DNA of 23,949 nt from a virus. The position numbers and the translations under genes are program-made. The stretch covers positions 1 through 23,949 of IMG/VR virus record IMGVR_UViG_3300033553_000834, one strand, 5' to 3'. This document shows, piece by piece, positions 2,337-16,265 of the stretch (the first letter of the stretch is position 1; every line of letters begins with the position of its first letter). The notes beneath the pieces are model-generated. The model was not told the origin of the DNA. It was given only the letters and a program-made list of their open reading frames with translations, and ran no database searches.

Positions 2337-2725
2337 CGCGGCGTGGAACCCCCGAGGCCGATCTGCAGCGTGCCGTTGTGCAGGCGTTACGCGTTGCCCT
2401 GCCGCGCACAGCCATCATCCATCACTGCGCCAATGAAGTGACCGTGGCTGGCCCCCGCGGCGCGAAACGGCAGGCTATCCTCGTCGGCATGGGCGTACAT
2501 GCGGGTTTTGCCGACCTGATGGTGCTCTGCGACGGTCGCGTTCTGTTTCTGGAACTCAAAGCCCCGAAAGGCCGATTGCGCCCCAACCAGGAGGCGTTTC
2601 GCGATGCCGTGCTGGCGCAGGGCTTCGGCTGGGCGCTCGTGCGCTCGCTCGACGACGCGTTGGGCGCATTGGCCGATCACAGGTTCACCAGCCGTGTCCG
2701 CCCAGCGCGGAGGCCTGTGCCATGA
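2333..2725 (+). CDS. VRR-NUC domain nuclease
   Basis: This 130-residue protein covers a stand-alone VRR-NUC domain, a PD-(D/E)XK-type nuclease fold common in phage early regions. The expected active-site pattern is present: E8 in the first helix, GVHAGFADLMVL with D61, LELK with E74 and K76, and Q86 in RLRPNQEAF. Family members cut branched or structured DNA, and phage versions are usually placed in replication or recombination; which substrate this one uses is not visible. It overlaps both neighbours by four bases (ATGA junctions), so it is translationally coupled to the replication-type gene that follows. Confidence 0.88.
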   Translation: MTRRGTPEADLQRAVVQALRVALPRTAIIHHCANEVTVAGPRGAKRQAILVGMGVHAGFADLMVLCDGRVLFLELKAPKGRLRPNQEAFRDAVLAQGFGWALVRSLDDALGALADHRFTSRVRPARRPVP

Positions 2726-3774
2726 GCCATGAAGCCACCAACTGGGCGATCAAGCAGCGGGGGTTGAAGCCCACCACCAAGATCGTGCTCTGGCATCTTT
2801 GCGACCGGTTCAACCCGGATTATGGCTGTTTCCCGTCGCAGGCGCGGCTGGCGCACGACTGCGAAATCAGCCGGGCAACGCTGAACCGCCACCTCGACGG
2901 GTTGGAAGCACGCGGACTCATTCGTCGGCTCAGGGTGATAGACCCCAAGACCGGGCAGCAGCGCCCCACCCGCTATCTGCTGGGCTGCGAGCCAGGGTTT
3001 ACGCCCCGCGGACCGGGCCAAATTGAGGGTGATCCAGCCAATCCCTTCGAGGCAGGCGCGGTTAAAACCCCGTGTCCGGATTTGAGACACGGGTCACTTG
3101 CCGAAAAATCGGATATCGACAACGGCTTGTCGTCCGAGACAGACCCGAACCCGTGTGTCATTTCCGGACACGGGTCCGTGTCTCAATTTGGCGCAAACCC
3201 GTGTCTCAAAAATGACCAATCCCGTGTCTCAAATTGCGACACTAACCTTGTAAGAGAACCCCTAAGTAAACCTGTAAAGGAGGAGGAGGACGCGGCTGCG
3301 CGCGATTCCGATTCTGATCGGCTCTTTGACGAGCTGCTCTCGGCGCTGGGCTTTGCCGCCAACGCGACCCTCCCGGCCTGGTGGCAGGGCTGGCCAGCGC
3401 GGACCCATGTGCGGCGATGGATCGATCACCTCGGGTTGTCTGAGAACCGGATCATCGAGGTCGCGGCCGAAACCCGGAACGAACACCCCGATCCGCCCGA
3501 TGGACCGAAAGCGCTGGATCGGTTCATGGAACGCGCCGCCCAGCGCGATGCGCAGGCGGCTGCCGCAAATGTCAGCGCCCTGAAATCCAAGCGCAGCCGC
3601 AAGGCCCAAGGAAAGCCGCCACCCAGCCCGGATGAACTGGCGAAATTCTACGCGTCCAAGGTCAACTCCGAGGAATACCTGCCCAATGGCATGATCAGCA
3701 ACGCCATGTGCGAGGCGATGCTGGCCCGCAGGTTGGTGACAGCGGACAGGCTGCGTCAGCGGGGAGTGCGGTGA
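2722..3774 (+). CDS. Winged-helix replication initiator-like protein with intragenic iterons
   Basis: This 350-residue protein probably binds the phage origin. Residues about 1-95 form a helix-turn-helix of the HTH_36/replication-protein type: a conserved start with NWAIKQRGLKPTTKIVLWHL, a GCFPSQARLAHDCEISRATLNRHL recognition region, and a basic wing. Residues about 95-200 are a low-complexity linker, and about 200-300 form a second, helical domain containing PAWWQGWPARTHVRRW. The linker is encoded by DNA holding seven copies of a CCCGTGTC-type repeat (see 3068-3238), the arrangement known from the lambda O gene, where the origin lies inside the initiator gene. The start overlaps the nuclease stop (ATGA). 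No helicase loader was recognised next to it. Direct function is inferred, not shown. Confidence 0.7.
   Translation: MSHEATNWAIKQRGLKPTTKIVLWHLCDRFNPDYGCFPSQARLAHDCEISRATLNRHLDGLEARGLIRRLRVIDPKTGQQRPTRYLLGCEPGFTPRGPGQIEGDPANPFEAGAVKTPCPDLRHGSLAEKSDIDNGLSSETDPNPCVISGHGSVSQFGANPCLKNDQSRVSNCDTNLVREPLSKPVKEEEDAAARDSDSDRLFDELLSALGFAANATLPAWWQGWPARTHVRRWIDHLGLSENRIIEVAAETRNEHPDPPDGPKALDRFMERAAQRDAQAAAANVSALKSKRSRKAQGKPPPSPDELAKFYASKVNSEEYLPNGMISNAMCEAMLARRLVTADRLRQRGVR
3068..3238 (+). repeat. Iteron-like repeat cluster (candidate replication origin)
   Basis: CCCGTGTC or a one-mismatch variant occurs at 3068, 3150, 3175, 3198 and 3221 on the plus strand and at 3086-3093 and 3167-3174 on the minus strand. 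The last three direct copies are exactly 23 nt apart and share the longer unit CCCGTGTCTCAAATTG with small changes. The first four copies form two inverted pairs with near-equal spacing. A stretch with lower GC than its surroundings (about 3239-3280) follows and could be the unwinding region. Confidence 0.75.
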
Positions 3775-5021
3775 ATGGCCTGGTGTCACGTCCCCGGCAC
3801 GGATTGTCCCTCTGCGCAGGCGGCGGTGGCCTTGATCTGGGCCTCATGCTCGCCGAACCCGGATATCACACCCGCGCCTTTGTCGAGTGGGAGGACTGGC
3901 CCCGAACTGTGCTCATCGCCGCCCAGCGCGGGGGGTATTTCGCCCCTGCGCCAATCTGGGATGATCTGCGCAGCTTCGATGCCCGGCCCTTTCATGGAGC
4001 CTTCGACATCGTCCTCGCCGGATATCCCTGCCAGCCCTTCAGCGCAGCCGGAAAACGCGGCGGTGCCGACGATCCCCGCCACCTCTGGCCCGAGGTCGCC
4101 CGCGTCATTCGGGAGTGCCGCCCCGAATGGGTCTTCCTTGAGAACGTCGCTGGGCACGTCACCCTCGGGTTTGAAACCGTGCTGCGTGAGCTTTGCGACT
4201 TGGGCTACACGCCTGCGGCGGGCCTGTTCAGCGCGGCAGAAGTCGGCGCGCCGCACCAGCGGCAGCGCGTCTTCATCCTGGCCCACACCAATGAGCCTGC
4301 ATCCCGGCACGGCCACCTACAACCCGGCGGGCAACAGCGATTTCACCCGCAAGGCCGAAGCACTGGCGCTGGGCATAACGAACTGGTCGACGCCCAAGGC
4401 GACAGATGGCGCGAAGGGCGGTCCGGGGCAGAGCAATGGTTCGGGCGGGATGCCTCCCCTGCCAGCACAGGCAGCACAGTGGCAGACGCCGGTGGCGGAC
4501 GATCGAGTCGACCGGCTGCGCGGCAAGATCAACAGCCGGGGCGAGCCGAAGCTGAGCGCGCAGTCACTCCAGTGGCCGACACCGGCGGCGCAGAACTGGA
4601 AGGGCAGCAGCGCGGCGAGCGTGACGCGGGCGGATGGCAAAAGCCGGATGGATATCCTGCATTATCGGGCGGAACAGGGCTTCACCCACCCGGACCCGGT
4701 GATCACGCCGCATGGGCGGCGGCCCTCGCGGCACGCCCCGATCTCGCGCCCGCTCTGGGCTTCGATGATTGCCTCGCATGGGCGGGCCGTCTCGCGGCGC
4801 GTCCTGAAAGCCCGGGCACGGCAGCGGCTCAATCCACTCTTCGTCGGATGGCTGATGGGCTGGCCCATCGGGCACGCGCTCTGCGCCTGCTCGGCAATGG
4901 AGTTCACCCTCTGGCAGCGGCACATGCGTGGCGCACTCTCGCAGCTGCCCATGGCCTCGGGCCCGTGGATCTGGCGACCGAGCGAGGGGCCGGAGAGCCC
5001 AGCGCAGATGACTCTCTTTGA
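3771..5021 (+). CDS. C5 cytosine DNA methyltransferase
   Basis: The product transfers a methyl group from SAM to C5 of cytosine. From the GTG at 3771 the protein has 416 residues: motif I SLCAGGGGLDLG (about 13-24), catalytic PCQPFS with C87, ENV at 124-126, QRQRVF at 163-168, a variable region with repeated VADA/VADT, and motif X LLGNGV with G375-N376. GTG overlaps the upstream stop (GTGA); GGGGAG lies at 3761-3766. The frame is open back to 3708, but those codons lie inside the previous gene. From about 4290 onward this frame has a poor third-position G/C pattern, while a +1 frame has a strong one (see 3775-5037). A phage orphan methylase protecting phage DNA is the likeliest role; the target site is unknown. 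Confidence 0.85.
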   Translation: MNGLVSRPRHGLSLCAGGGGLDLGLMLAEPGYHTRAFVEWEDWPRTVLIAAQRGGYFAPAPIWDDLRSFDARPFHGAFDIVLAGYPCQPFSAAGKRGGADDPRHLWPEVARVIRECRPEWVFLENVAGHVTLGFETVLRELCDLGYTPAAGLFSAAEVGAPHQRQRVFILAHTNEPASRHGHLQPGGQQRFHPQGRSTGAGHNELVDAQGDRWREGRSGAEQWFGRDASPASTGSTVADAGGGRSSRPAARQDQQPGRAEAERAVTPVADTGGAELEGQQRGERDAGGWQKPDGYPALSGGTGLHPPGPGDHAAWAAALAARPDLAPALGFDDCLAWAGRLAARPESPGTAAAQSTLRRMADGLAHRARALRLLGNGVHPLAAAHAWRTLAAAHGLGPVDLATERGAGEPSADDSL

Positions 5022-5785: not shown

Positions 5786-7323
<1,538 letters not shown>

Positions 7324-7327
<4 letters not shown>

Positions 7328-8604
7328 CAGCGTGGACAACTGAAACGCTGGAAAGCTGTCTGGAGGCTTTGCTCGACTATCGCGGTAAGAGTCCGACCAA
7401 ATCCGAGTCGGGCATCCCCGTTTTGTCAGCCAAGGTTGTCAAAACCGCTGGATTATTGCGTCCGATCGAACAAACAATCGCGCCAGATTATTATCCCAAG
7501 TGGATGACGCGCGGTTTTCCGATGCCGGGCGACGTAGTGATGACAACAGAGGCCCCTCTCGGTGAAGTAATCCAACTAGACGAAGAAACTGCGTCATTCG
7601 CTCTAGGCCAGCGTCTCGTTTGTCTTCGAGGCAAGGCCGGAAAGCTGGACAACACTTTCCTGCGCTATCTCTTAACCTCGCCCGGCCAGCAAGAGGTTCT
7701 TGCAAATCGTGCTACTGGCACAACTGTATTAGGGATTAGCCAAAAGACGCTTCGATCAATGCCAATCGCCTTTCCGGAGTTCTCGGAACAGCAGAGAATA
7801 GGCGATTTGCTTGCAACGCTGGATGACAAGATCGAGTTGAACCGGCGGATGAACGAGACGCTGGAGGCCATGGCGCGGGCGCTGTTCCGCGACTGGTTCG
7901 TCGACTTCGGCCCCACCCGCGCCAAGATGGCAGGCACCGCCCGCTACCTCTCCCCCGACCTCTGGTCCCTCTTCCCCGACAGCCTCGACGACGATGGCAA
8001 GCCGGAGGGGTGGGCGGAGAAGCCACTGGACGAGATTGCCAATTTTCTGAATGGCCTCGCCCTGCAGAAATTTCCCGGTGAGAATGAGGCCGACAGCCTT
8101 CCAGTGATCAAAATCGCCGAACTCCGGAACGGTATTACTGCCAAGTCAAATCGCGCTTCGCGCAAGGTGCCGTCGCAATACGTCATTCAAGACGGCGACT
8201 TCCTGTTTTCTTGGTCAGGCAGCTTGCTCGCCAAGTTCTGGACTGGCGGTGAGGGCGCATTGAATCAGCACTTATTTAAAGTCTCATCGGACCGTTACCC
8301 CGCATGGTTTTTCAGTGAATGGGTCCAGCGCCATCTGGAAGAGTTCCAGATCATTGCCGCATCCAAGGCCACGACGATGGGCCACATTCAGCGCGGGCAT
8401 TTGAAAGCCGCCACGACGATCTGCCCGCCTGATCCCATAGTCGAACGATTGGGCGACATAATGGCACACTTGATTGATCGGATGATCCACAACGAACTGG
8501 AATCCCGCACCCTCGCCCAGACCCGCGACCTTTTGCTGCCGCGCCTGATGTCGGGCGAAGTGATGGTTTCAGAAACCGCTAACGAGCCGGAGGTAGAGGC
8601 TTGA
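7324..8604 (+). CDS. hsdS: Type I restriction-modification system, specificity subunit HsdS
   Basis: This 426-residue subunit sets the bipartite DNA target of both restriction and modification. It shows the usual two-half structure: target-recognition domain 1 (about 1-150), a conserved helical spacer (about 153-198, with [21 protein letters not shown] and [16 protein letters not shown]), target-recognition domain 2 (about 230-395), and a C-terminal conserved helix ending in [13 protein letters not shown]. The two halves differ, as expected for an asymmetric target. It is complete, coupled to hsdM by ATGA and to the next gene by TTGA. The target sequence cannot be read from the protein by eye. 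Confidence 0.95.
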
Positions 8605-9361
8605 GCAGTGATTGGTATCCGGGCATCGAGCGGTTCTGCGGGCATTGGAAACATGCACCGATGCTGCAACAGACATTCGAGACGCTGAAACAGACCTTTG
8701 CGGAAGGCAACGATGCCTGCATTGATGCATCCAAAAGCCTTGTAGAATGTGCTTGCCGTGTCATCATTGAAAACCTTGACGATCCCGTGAACCCGATCAA
8801 GGGTTGGAAAGACAGTCCAGTCAAGGCCGAGATGCCAGGTTTCAAGGACTGGGTCTCTGCCGCGCTCCGCCTGCTGGAATTGACTGAAAGTCGCGATGAC
8901 CCGTTTAGCAAGCTCCTGTCACAGCACTTCAAGCTGGTGGATGAACTGGGACGCTTTCGAAATCTCGCTGGACCCATCAGTCATGGCAAACAAGGCTTCG
9001 CGCAAAAGCTTTCCGCCCACCACCGGCGCGCCGCGCTGTTGGCCGCCGACGCATTGGTTACCTTCTTACATGAGGCCTATCTGGAGCGTGAGCCTGACCC
9101 GGTTTTGACATTTGAACCATATGAACTGTTCCCGCGGTCGAATGCCATCATAGATTTCCATGTAGAGGCGGATGCGGCAGGAAACGAGGACGGCTGGGTT
9201 GATTTATCCTTTCGTCTGCCGGACGGTGAAACGCTCGACATAAGTGTCGAACCATCCCGCCTACTTTTTGGTGTTGATCGTGAAGCATACAAGTATGTTC
9301 TAGGTTTGTGCCGAGACGCTTCACTGCCTCCAGAGGAAGATACTCCAGGGGAGGCGGCGTG

Positions 9362-9362
<1 letters not shown>
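8601..9362 (+). CDS. Abi_C-like protein within the Type I RM operon
   Basis: This 253-residue protein lies between hsdS and hsdR. It contains [11 protein letters not shown] (R120 to K130) followed by a long helix ([21 protein letters not shown]). This matches the RN-x(6)-HGK pattern of the Abi_C (abortive infection C-terminal) domain, which resembles the HEPN fold; RNase activity is a possibility, not something shown here. The C-terminal ~90 residues form a separate acidic domain. The start appears to be TTG at 8601, overlapping the hsdS stop, because the conserved-looking N-terminus [14 protein letters not shown] lies before the first ATG (8661). Its stop overlaps the hsdR ATG (TGATG). It probably adds a second layer of defence or controls the RM system; the role is inferred. 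Confidence 0.75.
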
Positions 9363-12496
<3,134 letters not shown>

Positions 12497-12520
12497 ACAG
12501 GCCATCAAGGACATATTATA

Positions 12521-13726
12521 ATGAGCGTAAAATTGTTGAACGCGAAGGCCGTCGCAAAACGCCTTGAGCAACTTATTGAGGATCACGAAGAAATCCATGT
12601 TGCGGTGGCGTGGGGCTACAATGGCCATCTCGCCGATTGCCTGCTGCGCAACAAGCATAAGTTCTCCTCCGTAACTTTCGGCTTGGCCTTTTGTCAGACA
12701 GACCCCGACCTCATTGATCGCCTGATTGGGATCAAGAATGCTTTCGTGGCGGACAGCGGCAACAAGACATTTCATCCGAAACTATACTATTTTCGGACGG
12801 GAGAAGTCGCCGAGGCAATCATTGGAAGCTCGAACTTCACGACAGGGGGAATGGATAAGAACTGGGAAGCCAGCGTCCACATCAAGGGGCCATGGACTGC
12901 TCAAATTTTCAAGCAGGCTCGCGAGTGCCTCGAAAGCTACGCAGGACTCCGCAAAGTCGTCAGCAAGCACCTAGCCGAGAACTATAGATTGCAGTTCGAT
13001 GCTGCCAAAATGCTGAAAAAGCCTAAACATCCAGTTCTGCCGGGCTCTGGCCTTCCCGGCGCTCAGTTGAACTCGCAATTGGTCAAAATGCGTTGGGATG
13101 AATTCGTCAGCGCAGCGAAGGCCGGTCCGCACCATAACTTCGATACACGCCTCAGCCTTCTTCGCGAATGCCAAAAAATGTTTGCCGGTGTGAAGTCGTT
13201 CGCAGAATTATCCGGAAATCAATGGAAGGCAATCGCCGGAGTAATTGGCGCGAAACAGAAGCTTGACGCGGGACTTGATGGCTATGACTGGGGTTGGTTT
13301 GGTTCGATGAAGGGAATGGGAGATTTTGCCAATCGCATAGCTGAACAAGACGCGTTCCTGGCACGGGCAGTTGATTGCATACCCCGGCACGGCGACATCA
13401 CCAAAGCGCAATATGAGGATTTCTGCGGCAACTTTTTACAGGCATTCAAGAATTCTAGCCGGATTGGAGGCGTGCCGACTGCGACGAGGCTCCTTGCGAT
13501 GAAACGTCCTGATACCTTCGTTTGTATCAGCAAGCCAAACATGACGGGTCTTTCTGATGCGCTAGCGTTTCCAAAGACTACTCTAGACCTCGATAACTAC
13601 TGGGACCGTGTCATTGAACCGATGAGAATTTCACCTTGGTACAATTCCCCACGCCCGGCCGGGCAGAATGCCGAGCTTTGGGATGGCCGCGCTGCTATGC
13701 TCGACGCCATCTACTATGATGGATAG
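12521..13726 (+). CDS. Phospholipase D-fold protein, likely nuclease, with unknown C-terminal domain
   Basis: This 401-residue protein starts 24 nt after hsdR. Residues about 1-130 form a single PLD-type domain: HPK at 85-87 followed by IGSSNFTTGG with N105 and then E116, the H-x-K...N...E pattern of PLD-family nucleases (BfiI and NgoFVII are known restriction examples). Only one HKD-like half is present, so a dimer would be needed. Residues about 180-401 are an unrecognised domain containing IGGVPTATRLLAMKRPDTFVCISKPN. GC content is visibly lower than in the phage genes, which suggests separate acquisition. Its place at the end of the RM operon suggests a helper or an independent defence effector. 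Substrate unknown. Confidence 0.75.
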   Translation: MSVKLLNAKAVAKRLEQLIEDHEEIHVAVAWGYNGHLADCLLRNKHKFSSVTFGLAFCQTDPDLIDRLIGIKNAFVADSGNKTFHPKLYYFRTGEVAEAIIGSSNFTTGGMDKNWEASVHIKGPWTAQIFKQARECLESYAGLRKVVSKHLAENYRLQFDAAKMLKKPKHPVLPGSGLPGAQLNSQLVKMRWDEFVSAAKAGPHHNFDTRLSLLRECQKMFAGVKSFAELSGNQWKAIAGVIGAKQKLDAGLDGYDWGWFGSMKGMGDFANRIAEQDAFLARAVDCIPRHGDITKAQYEDFCGNFLQAFKNSSRIGGVPTATRLLAMKRPDTFVCISKPNMTGLSDALAFPKTTLDLDNYWDRVIEPMRISPWYNSPRPAGQNAELWDGRAAMLDAIYYDG

Positions 13727-14256: not shown

Positions 14257-15519
14257 ATGGACCTTGTCTTCGCGCCAAGCGAGATTGAGACGTGGCCGAT
14301 CGACCGGCTGCGCCCCTATGCTCGCAATGCCAAGATGCACGGCGACGACCAGGTGGCCAAGATCGCCGCCAGCATGGCCAAGTTCGGCTGGACCGTGCCC
14401 TGCATGGTGGCGGACGATGGTGAACTGATCGCCGGGCATGGCCGGGTGCTGGCCGCGACGATGCTTGGGCTGACGGACGTGCCGGTAATCCGGCTCGGCC
14501 ACCTCGATGAGGCCGAACGCAGGGCCTACCGCATCGCCGACAATAAATTAACCGAGCTGGGCGAATGGGACGAGGCCATGCTGCGCGACGAGATCGCGGG
14601 GCTGCTGGCCGAGGATTTCGACCTGTCACTGCTGGGGATCACTGACGAGGATCTGGATGCGCTGCTGCGGGATCCGGATGCGCTGGGCGGGGATGGGCCG
14701 GTCGATGGCGAGGATGACATTCCCGAACCGCCGGTCACGCCGGTGTCGATTCCGGGCGATCTCTGGCAGCTTGGATCGCACCGACTGATCTGTGGCGATA
14801 GCACATCGGCGGAGGTGGTTGGGCGTCTTCTGGGCGATGTAAAGCCGCTGCTGATGGTCACCGATCCGCCCTACGGCGTGGATTACGATCCGTCTTGGCG
14901 CAACCAGACGGGCGCGGCGAAGACCAAACGCACAGGCAAGGTCCTGAACGATGATAGAGCCGACTGGCGCGAGGCATGGGCCCTGTTCCCCGGCGATGTT
15001 GCTTACGTCTGGCATGGCGCACTGCACACCGCGACCGTCGCCGAGAGCTTGGTGGCCGCGGGCTTCGCAGTCCGGTCGCAGATCATCTGGGCCAAGGATC
15101 GGTTGGTGCTGAGCCGCGGCGATTACCACTGGCAGCATGAGCCTTGCTGGTATGCAGTCCGCAAGACCGGAAAGGGCCACTGGGCCGGGGACCGCAAGCA
15201 AACCACGCTCTGGCACATTTCCGGCAAGGACCAGGACGCCGCCACGGTCCACGGGACGCAAAAGCCGGTCGAATGCATGCGCCGCCCGATCCTGAACAAT
15301 TCCAGCCCCGGTCAGGCTGTATTCGAACCCTTCATGGGGTCAGGCACCACGCTGATCGCGGCGGAAACGACGGGTCGCGTCTGCTTCGGAATCGAGTTGA
15401 ACTCAGCCTACGTCGATGTGGCCATCGAGCGATGGCAGCAGTTTACAGGCGCCAACGCTGTGCTGGCCGAAACCGGCGAGACTTTTGCCGATCTTAAGGC
15501 GGAAAGGCTGGGCGCATGA
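14257..15519 (+). CDS. ParB-like/DNA methylase fusion protein
   Basis: This 420-residue two-domain protein starts with a ParB/sulfiredoxin-like domain (about 8-100: IDRLRPYARNAKMHGDDQVAKIAASM, then GHGR at 60-63 and RIADNKL). An acidic linker (about 130-160) leads to a beta-class N4-cytosine or N6-adenine methylase with DPPY at 203-206 and FMGSGTT at 359-365, so motif IV comes before motif I. This architecture is common in phages of alphaproteobacteria. The methylase could protect phage DNA or control packaging and gene expression; the ParB-like part probably binds or cuts DNA or hydrolyses nucleotides. No clear ribosome site precedes the ATG at 14257. It follows a strong terminator, so it needs its own promoter. 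Confidence 0.92.
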   Translation: MDLVFAPSEIETWPIDRLRPYARNAKMHGDDQVAKIAASMAKFGWTVPCMVADDGELIAGHGRVLAATMLGLTDVPVIRLGHLDEAERRAYRIADNKLTELGEWDEAMLRDEIAGLLAEDFDLSLLGITDEDLDALLRDPDALGGDGPVDGEDDIPEPPVTPVSIPGDLWQLGSHRLICGDSTSAEVVGRLLGDVKPLLMVTDPPYGVDYDPSWRNQTGAAKTKRTGKVLNDDRADWREAWALFPGDVAYVWHGALHTATVAESLVAAGFAVRSQIIWAKDRLVLSRGDYHWQHEPCWYAVRKTGKGHWAGDRKQTTLWHISGKDQDAATVHGTQKPVECMRRPILNNSSPGQAVFEPFMGSGTTLIAAETTGRVCFGIELNSAYVDVAIERWQQFTGANAVLAETGETFADLKAERLGA

Positions 15520-15609
15520 AGGCGCCCCGTGCCAAAGGATGCTAAAAAATGGGTTCAAAACCTCACGCGAAGATGAACAACGGTCCCGTATAGAACTTGA
15601 CCTCACCCA

Positions 15610-15638
15610 CTTCGGTTGTGACAGTTTGGGGACCGAAG
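15610..15638. promoter_or_regulatory. Inverted repeat upstream of the DUF1989 gene
   Basis: CTTCGGT (15610-15616) and ACCGAAG (15632-15638) are perfect 7-bp arms around a 15-nt spacer, ending 24 nt before the start codon of the DUF1989 gene. An operator or a leader hairpin is possible. No clear promoter hexamers were found in the 143-nt gap. Confidence 0.35.
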
Positions 15639-15662
15639 CGCCGATGGCAGAGGATGCAAAGC

Positions 15663-16265
15663 ATGACGACAGACCTCCATGTGGTCCCTGCACGACGCGG
15701 TCGCGCCGTCCGAGTTGCCAAGGGGAAGGCCATTCAGATCATCAATACCCACGGTAAACAGGTCGTGGACACTTGGTGTTTTAATGCCGACGACTTAGCC
15801 GAATTCATGTCCATGGAGCATCTGCACGCGGCGATTGAGGGCATCTTTCCGGCGAAAGGTGATGCACTCACCACAAATCGGCGGCGGCCGATCCTGCTTC
15901 TGGAAGAAGACACCTCGCCCGGGCGCCATGACACGGTCATCGCAGCCTGCGATGTGCACCGCTACGCCATGCTGGGTTGCCGGGAGTATCACGATAATTG
16001 TACCGACAATCTGCATGCCGCCCTGGCGCAGCTTGATCTGCGCGCGCCGGACTGCCCGGCGCCGCTGAACCTGTGGATGAACATTCCCGTAGAGCCGGAC
16101 GGAAAAATCATTTGGGGCGAGCCACTCAGCGAGCCGGGAGATTATGTGACGCTGCGCGCTGCGATCGACTGTGTCGTGGTAATGTCGACCTGCCCTCAGG
16201 ATATGATCCCGGTCAACGGCGCCGACTGCAAACCCACCGAGGTTCACTACCGGCTGCTCGACTAA
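15663..16265 (+). CDS. DUF1989 (urea carboxylase-associated) family protein
   Basis: This 200-residue protein matches the DUF1989 family in order: an N-terminal barrel part with GKAIQIINTHGKQVVDTW, then a Cys/His cluster with C96, C106, H110, C113 and N116 in GCREYHDNCTDNLH, NLWMNI, GDYVTLRAAIDCVV, and STCPQD with C177. Family members accompany urea carboxylase or guanidine-degradation genes, and a heterodimeric pair acts as carboxyguanidine deiminase. No partner or carboxylase gene is nearby. I chose the ATG at 15663, with AGAGGA about 12 nt upstream, over an extension from 15597 that does not look like family sequence. It sits between phage genes and so looks like phage-carried cargo. The substrate here is unknown. 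Confidence 0.85.
   Translation: MTTDLHVVPARRGRAVRVAKGKAIQIINTHGKQVVDTWCFNADDLAEFMSMEHLHAAIEGIFPAKGDALTTNRRRPILLLEEDTSPGRHDTVIAACDVHRYAMLGCREYHDNCTDNLHAALAQLDLRAPDCPAPLNLWMNIPVEPDGKIIWGEPLSEPGDYVTLRAAIDCVVVMSTCPQDMIPVNGADCKPTEVHYRLLD

Follow-up and report, generated by a model that had tools for sequence, protein, structure and literature searches.

The question raised by this locus is whether an array of short repeats lying inside a phage gene could be the replication origin recognized by the product of that same gene. The window, i.e. the whole stretch of DNA analyzed, is an IMG/VR virus record of 23,949 bases. It encodes an integrase, an excisionase-like HTH protein, a VRR_NUC protein, the candidate initiator, and a DNA methyltransferase-like protein, followed by type I restriction-modification, terminase, portal, S49 protease, and head genes. 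The candidate initiator gene (2722-3774, plus strand) is an ORF of 350 aa, whose relatives, identified by protein similarity, are encoded by prophages and phages, mostly of Rhodobacterales. Four loci (L093, L095, L111, and L134) come from metagenome bins labeled Acidovorax or Burkholderiaceae with an otherwise alphaproteobacterial initiator; their contigs may have been binned wrongly, or the range of hosts may be wider.

The protein starts with a winged-helix domain (aa 14-71, encoded by 2761-2934 on the plus strand, as are the parts below), delimited by Pfam matches covering aa 14-67 to 14-71 and by the helices and strands of the structural model. Within it, a helix in the AF2 model (aa 51-63, 2872-2910) is the predicted recognition helix, in which residues 51, 52, and 56 covary with the repeats. 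A disordered linker (aa 99-178, 3016-3255), with an AlphaFold pLDDT below 50, leads to a C-terminal domain that AF2 predicts to be helical (aa 186-346, 3277-3759). The full-protein model is weak (pTM 0.31).

The earlier note had described this protein as not obviously homologous to lambda O and possibly belonging to a separate initiator family. Profile searches call for a correction of this view. The protein matches HTH_36 (PF13730) at 8.8e-16 (57.9 bits, against a curated cut-off of 25), as do all 64 aligned relatives; in database annotation, relatives go by the name 'HTH DNA binding domain protein'. PF04492 (Phage_rep_O), which lambda O itself matches at 5.7e-36, is absent from its Pfam matches at E ≤ 10, and aligning the family with lambda O by hhalign gave no meaningful alignment. 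On the other hand, its top PHROG is phrog_345, 'replication initiation O-like' (3.9e-24), followed by the O-like phrog_391 (7.4e-12) and phrog_678 (2.3e-6), and lambda O matches the same three (5.2e-17, 2.7e-39, and 1.7e-35, respectively). Because it shares the phrog_345 match with lambda O and carries HTH_36 rather than PF04492, the protein is best described as an O-like initiator that is connected with lambda O while belonging to another Pfam family. RP-C (PF03428) stayed below its curated cut-off, with weak matches in 19/64 members (best E 0.0023); the relative L064 reaches 21.1 bits versus a cut-off of 24.4. A PDB sequence search gave a MarR-like regulator as best match (5.7e-4). Foldseek found nothing in the PDB at E ≤ 0.001, its best matches being MarR-type proteins and the N-terminal domain of DnaD, with RctB domain 1 ranking lower, and returned 51 viral models at E ≤ 0.001, one of them a replication protein O.

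A repeat array conserved as DNA

Exact CCGTGTC sites are found at 3070, 3176, 3199, and 3222 on the plus strand and at 3086 and 3167 on the minus strand, with a CCGTGTG at 3151 on the plus strand. These seven sites fall within about 160 nt and, with a degenerate eighth half-site (GACAC, 3238-3242), span 3069-3242. Two inverted pairs, CCCGTGTC-9 nt-GACACGGG (3069-3093, sites 3070/3086) and CCCGTGTG-9 nt-GACACGGG (3150-3174, sites 3151/3167), each with 9 nt between half-sites, precede three direct iterons of 23 nt on the plus strand, D1 (3175-3197), D2 (3198-3220), and D3 (3221-3243), whose sites at 3176, 3199, and 3222 follow in exact 23-nt steps. The eighth half-site lies in D3 and makes this last unit an inverted pair too. 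The seven units, the 23-nt repeats, and the two inverted pairs were thus all found with the geometry reported in the earlier note. Its placement of the array in the DNA for the linker between winged helix and C-terminal domain agrees with the AlphaFold model, the array being almost wholly inside aa 99-178, between the winged helix and the helical C-terminal part.

CCGTGTC occurs 12 times in the 23.9-kb window, versus 3.5 +/- 1.9 in shuffles, and 6/12 copies are inside the array. The repeat score of the linker DNA is 81, as compared with 7.8 +/- 3.5 in dinucleotide shuffles (0/200 reach 81), and it exceeds 231/231 same-length control windows of the record. When synonymous codons were permuted within the linker, keeping the protein unchanged, the score dropped to 10.5 (maximum 27), again with 0/200 reaching 81. 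An Rfam search of 2700-3800 gave only two sub-threshold microRNA matches, which we take as chance, and in a scan for sigma-70-like promoters one site overlaps the array, with no clear excess over shuffles.

We then analyzed 159 sequences (158 loci and the window), of which 157 have a complete ORF, the other two being dropped; these correspond to 141 distinct genes. In all 141, the linker DNA scores above all 200 dinucleotide shuffles and above all 200 protein-preserving synonymous permutations, and in 137 (all but L003, L099, L101, and L114) it also beats every control window from the same locus. As a positive control, the lambda O linker also exceeds its shuffles (40 versus 9.3). More distant queries yielded 38 further distinct genes, one of them too short; 36 of the 37 tested exceed all shuffles, and the divergent relative L245 shows no repeat excess. 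The best repeat lag is 23 nt in 125/141 genes and 46 nt in nine more. The earlier expectation that homologues would keep the position and spacing of the array is therefore borne out, with the same linker in 141/141 genes of the first set and a period of mostly 23 nt; a gene with the same domains lacking the repeats, the finding that the note regarded as fatal to its proposal, was encountered among the tested genes only in L245. Iteron copies occupy all three reading frames in 139/162 genes. As a 23-nt step does not preserve the reading frame and copies occur in all three, the repeat is conserved as DNA, and selection acts at that level. Its cores are concentrated in the linkers: across 156 genes there are 794 there, versus 19 in the 400 nt upstream of the gene, 11 in the N-terminal part, and 6 in the 400 nt past the linker. 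Among relatives recognized by their N-terminal domain, the gammaproteobacterial L523 (Serratia phage Parlo) and L524 (Klebsiella phage LASTA) have initiator genes from 2501 with GGTTCACAG-like repeats and then AACC-type units; their repeat excess is modest, with 6 and 8 of 200 shuffles, respectively, reaching it.

A constant low-GC element beside the array

The earlier note had also pointed to a lower-GC patch behind the array, and indeed the GC content of 3237-3290 is 0.46, as against about 0.6-0.65 in the surrounding region. This patch harbors a putative DNA-unwinding element (DUE; 3243-3289, plus strand), recognized by its repeats, their spacing and frames, and invariance at the codon level. 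In the window it consists of AACC units at 3244, 3257, and 3269 (spacings 13 and 12), then a purine run, AAAGGAGGAGGAGG, that is nearly invariant among relatives. Repeated 13-mers in a DUE have precedents, three in oriC and four in RK2, all four of the latter being needed, according to PMC4980987.

AACC units were counted in 176 genes, a 177th being too short. Three copies of AACCn1-3TAA lie within 45 nt in 147/176 genes and two in 20/176, so that 167/176 have at least two, versus 0/176 shuffles and 0/161 upstream control windows; the remaining 9/176 have fewer than two. Successive copies are 13 and 12 nt apart in 133/167 genes, and the distance from the last iteron core to the first AACC copy is 19 nt in 146/162. 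The units stand in reading frames that differ between relatives, and hence encode different peptides. The element also lies behind more than one type of iteron, in relatives whose C-terminal parts are unlike. Its first unit is mostly CCTTGTAAGAG or CCCTGTAAGGG, an inverted repeat, and the two variable bases of this unit are linked (TA 92, CG 70, TG 18, and CA 6, in 186 distinct contexts).

Codon usage past the last iteron was compared in 126 genes having the same C-terminal domain, with the rest of these genes as reference, from which the nearly fixed codons of this stretch differ. Val177 and Val185 are encoded by GTA in 126/126 genes, a codon that makes up 3.1% of Val codons elsewhere. Arg178 is AGA or AGG in 125/126 genes (4.5% elsewhere) and Leu181 is CTA or TTA in 125/125 (1.8% elsewhere). 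An internal AGGAGG was considered as a Shine-Dalgarno sequence for an internal start and rejected, there being no ATG, GTG, or TTG within about 20 nt.

Sequence patterns derived from the element retrieve further homologues. An 18-nt pattern, TAACCYTGTAAGRGAACC, occurs 17 times in 5 carrier genomes and 16 times in 14/198 genomes of one host family, with no occurrence of the reversed pattern in either set, and 25/25 of the sites fetched are behind a winged-helix homologue. In the viral collection, a 16-nt pattern matches at least 120 contigs; 74 of those listed have the site behind a homologue, and the other 46, scattered contigs with a GC content of at most 0.53, were put down to chance. A two-unit pattern, AACCnGTAAnnGAACCnGTAA, is found in at least 120 contigs and at least 128 collapsed sites. 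Among the matches listed, 25 are in winged-helix ORFs, with repeats upstream in 25/25, and 102 are in other sequences, mostly of low GC, 31 of them with repeats upstream (one more was too short). Because of these 102 sites, AACCnGTAAnnGAACCnGTAA cannot serve as a diagnostic pattern on its own in phages of low GC.

Recognition-helix residues that covary with the iterons

The earlier note predicted that iterons should vary in sequence with the winged helix. Covariation was tabulated for the 162 of 177 genes with a CC-N-[TA][GC]TC motif; the 15 left out, having no usable motif, include divergent motif classes and L056, whose CCGTGTCCAG-type motif the rule missed. All 125 genes with Arg51 have G at motif position 5, and all 37 with Ile, Val, or Leu51 have C there. 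CA at positions 9-10 is found in 22/23 genes with Arg56 and in 0/139 without it. Across all pairs of N-terminal residues and motif positions, normalized mutual information peaks for residue 51 with position 5 (0.71), residue 52 with position 8 coming next (0.68). Residues outside the helix follow, e.g. residue 80 with position 3 (0.59), so that part of this signal is relatedness.

An out-of-sample check used initiators found through the DUE patterns instead of protein similarity. From 26 loci it gave 11 new pairs, five with Arg51 and GTC and six with Asn or Ser51 and CTC, with none contrary; the latter six are not fully independent because four have a related helix. Unused were L414 and L424 (by contig name) and L522 (by identical helix and units), set aside as duplicates of earlier sequences, L303, which could not be aligned, L396 (a GTGC variant), and ten loci with other motif types. 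The L396 pattern site, with CCATGTGCAGAA-type iterons and the helix PRRTLNV, represents a further specificity class.

In the combined sets, Arg51 occurs with G in 130/130 cases and non-Arg51 with C in 43/43, a rule that holds in 173/173. At residue 56, Arg occurs with CA in 24/25 cases, Lys with CAC in 3/3, and Asp or Glu with CG in 108/108. The covariation with the winged helix that the earlier note expected is thus found at both residues. On the best tree there are four switches for residue 51 and six for residue 56, two each on supported branches, and no tree-based pair runs in the opposite direction; with so few phylogenetically independent switches, a sign test cannot reach 0.05.

Two comparisons separate the iteron from the rest of the protein. 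The window protein and L064 have 72% of the first 90 residues in common and use the same iteron, but their C-terminal parts align with a score of 38, versus 31-40 for shuffled sequence. Conversely, 82% of the C-terminal part is common to the window protein and L016, but their helices and iterons differ, L016 representing an Ile51/Glu56 type with the half-site CCATCTCCGG versus CCGTGTCTCA. Iteron type therefore follows the winged helix, not the C-terminal domain.

The candidate origin, its alternatives and known systems

These features make it very likely that gene 2722-3774 encodes a phage replication initiator with its own lambda-type origin inside, formed by the iterons and the DUE. The N-terminal winged helix would bind the CCGTGTCTCA half-sites through residues 51, 52, and 56 of its recognition helix, occupying two inverted pairs and then three units at 23 nt. 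The covariation of helix and iteron supports such binding indirectly. The resulting nucleoprotein complex may melt the adjoining low-GC stretch with its three AACCn1-3TAA 12-13-mers, and the host replicative helicase could be recruited either by the C-terminal domain or by a host factor that recognizes the 13-mers. These steps, from binding to helicase loading, and the role of the site as an active origin are all deduced here from sequence. The helicase is probably that of the host because no DnaB_C match was found in the records of 26/26 relatives, which may be fragments; DnaC-like matches above the cut-off were likewise absent from all 26, with three weak short ones below it. The GC-skew minimum of the window (4.35 kb) is near the array (about 3.25 kb), as is that of Labrenzia phage V1 after detrending (35.2 versus 36.8 kb). 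In Rhodobacter phage RcSwan it is not (11.7 versus 38.8 kb), and this measure is inconsistent between phages.

Could the protein instead be a transcriptional regulator and the array its operator, serving autoregulation or an early-operon switch with no role as an origin? A winged helix similar to the MarR type, the clustering of inverted and direct sites, and the annotation of the relatives as HTH proteins would suit such a role. Nevertheless, we consider it unlikely: the sites are in the linker and few are upstream of the gene, the low-GC 12-13-mer element with its near-invariant rare codons has no obvious function in an operator, and the profile matches are to replication initiators. Less likely still is a centromere-like or architectural site for partition or packaging, bound by the same protein, with replication starting elsewhere. 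Iteron-like arrays serve partition as well, and the window has a gene for a ParB-like/methyltransferase fusion (14257-15519), but DUE-type 12-13-mers at a fixed distance from the iterons, and covariation of the array with the very protein encoded by its host gene, speak against it. That the repeats are a by-product of protein sequence or low-complexity coding DNA, for which a disordered and tolerant linker might leave room, is not supported in view of the frame shift at each copy with a 23-nt period, the loss of the repeats upon synonymous permutation in 141/141 genes, and AACC units standing in different frames in different homologues.

The proposed initiator-origin gene is closest in layout to lambda, and iterons within an O-type gene are textbook knowledge. 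As the earlier note had noticed, the design is that of lambda O: in the lambda record, four iterons lie within O, between the DNA-binding and C-terminal parts, in steps of 20, 24, and 23 nt, each an inverted repeat and most with a CTCAAA center, and an AT-rich, purine-rich stretch comes next. The window matches a lambda-type replicon in that its iterons are located within the initiator gene and an AT-rich region comes behind them. It lacks a helicase-loader gene P directly downstream, judging from the profile matches of the neighbors, which are VRR_NUC upstream and, downstream, a DNA methyltransferase-like gene, where lambda has P, and phrog_9306. Further differences are that the window has 23-nt units plus separate inverted pairs, and that the AACC 12-13-mer element of its family is absent from the lambda stretch. 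For the O proteins of Stx phages, PMC7466680 describes iterons and an AT-rich tract in the middle of the O gene, and O dimers.

Plasmids offer two other parallels. Like the window, iteron plasmids such as RK2 have iterons adjoining a DUE with repeated 13-mers (TrfA/oriV, PMC4980987). RepC, treated below, has its origin within the initiator gene, as the window does; in the iteron plasmids it is outside, the initiator is from another family, and the replicon is a plasmid rather than a phage. RepC of repABC plasmids is, like the window protein, an alphaproteobacterial initiator with the origin within its own gene, in an A+T-rich region, and the two have weak winged-helix similarity; according to PMC3155836, oriV lies within repC, silent changes raising the G+C content of the origin region abolish replication, and, unlike in the window, no iterons were found. 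The RP-C match of the window family, as said, is below the cut-off.

What seems to be new is this initiator family, together with its helix-iteron code and its constant element of 12-13-mers. A literature search found no description of an intragenic origin of this family or of AACC 12-13-mers, which, with subscription journals poorly covered, is weak evidence of absence. We tentatively suggest that a large group of phage initiators may use a two-part origin grammar, in which variable iterons, read by residues 51, 52, and 56 through a simple, predictable code, and a constant AACC part travel with the winged helix as one cassette, joined to varied C-terminal domains. If so, the code would read R51-G, non-R51-C, R56-CA, D/E56-CG, and K56-CAC, and the constant part would be three AACCn1-3TAA 12-13-mers, their offset fixed at 19 nt. 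Because proteins with dissimilar C-terminal halves have this part in common, its reader would be either a host factor or the N-terminal part that they share. Origin specificity could then be predicted from the protein sequence alone. Apart from this suggestion, the analysis makes of a family of 'HTH DNA binding domain' proteins a set of predicted replicons of alphaproteobacterial prophages and phages, each with an origin locatable to a few bases. With a variable iteron and a constant DUE, two questions become testable: how an initiator switches target without losing its own origin when a single gene holds both target and reader, and which factor recognizes the constant 13-mers if C-terminal domains differ.

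Other genes of the window deserve mention. A DUF1989 protein with no PHROG match is encoded at 15597-16265 in this phage record, and the ParB-like domain at 14257-15519 is fused to an N6/N4 DNA methyltransferase. Between the replication and packaging genes, 5786-13726 contains a type I restriction-modification set (hsdM, hsdS, and hsdR), in which hsdR is separated from hsdS by an Abi_C-domain gene and has a PLD-family gene after it.
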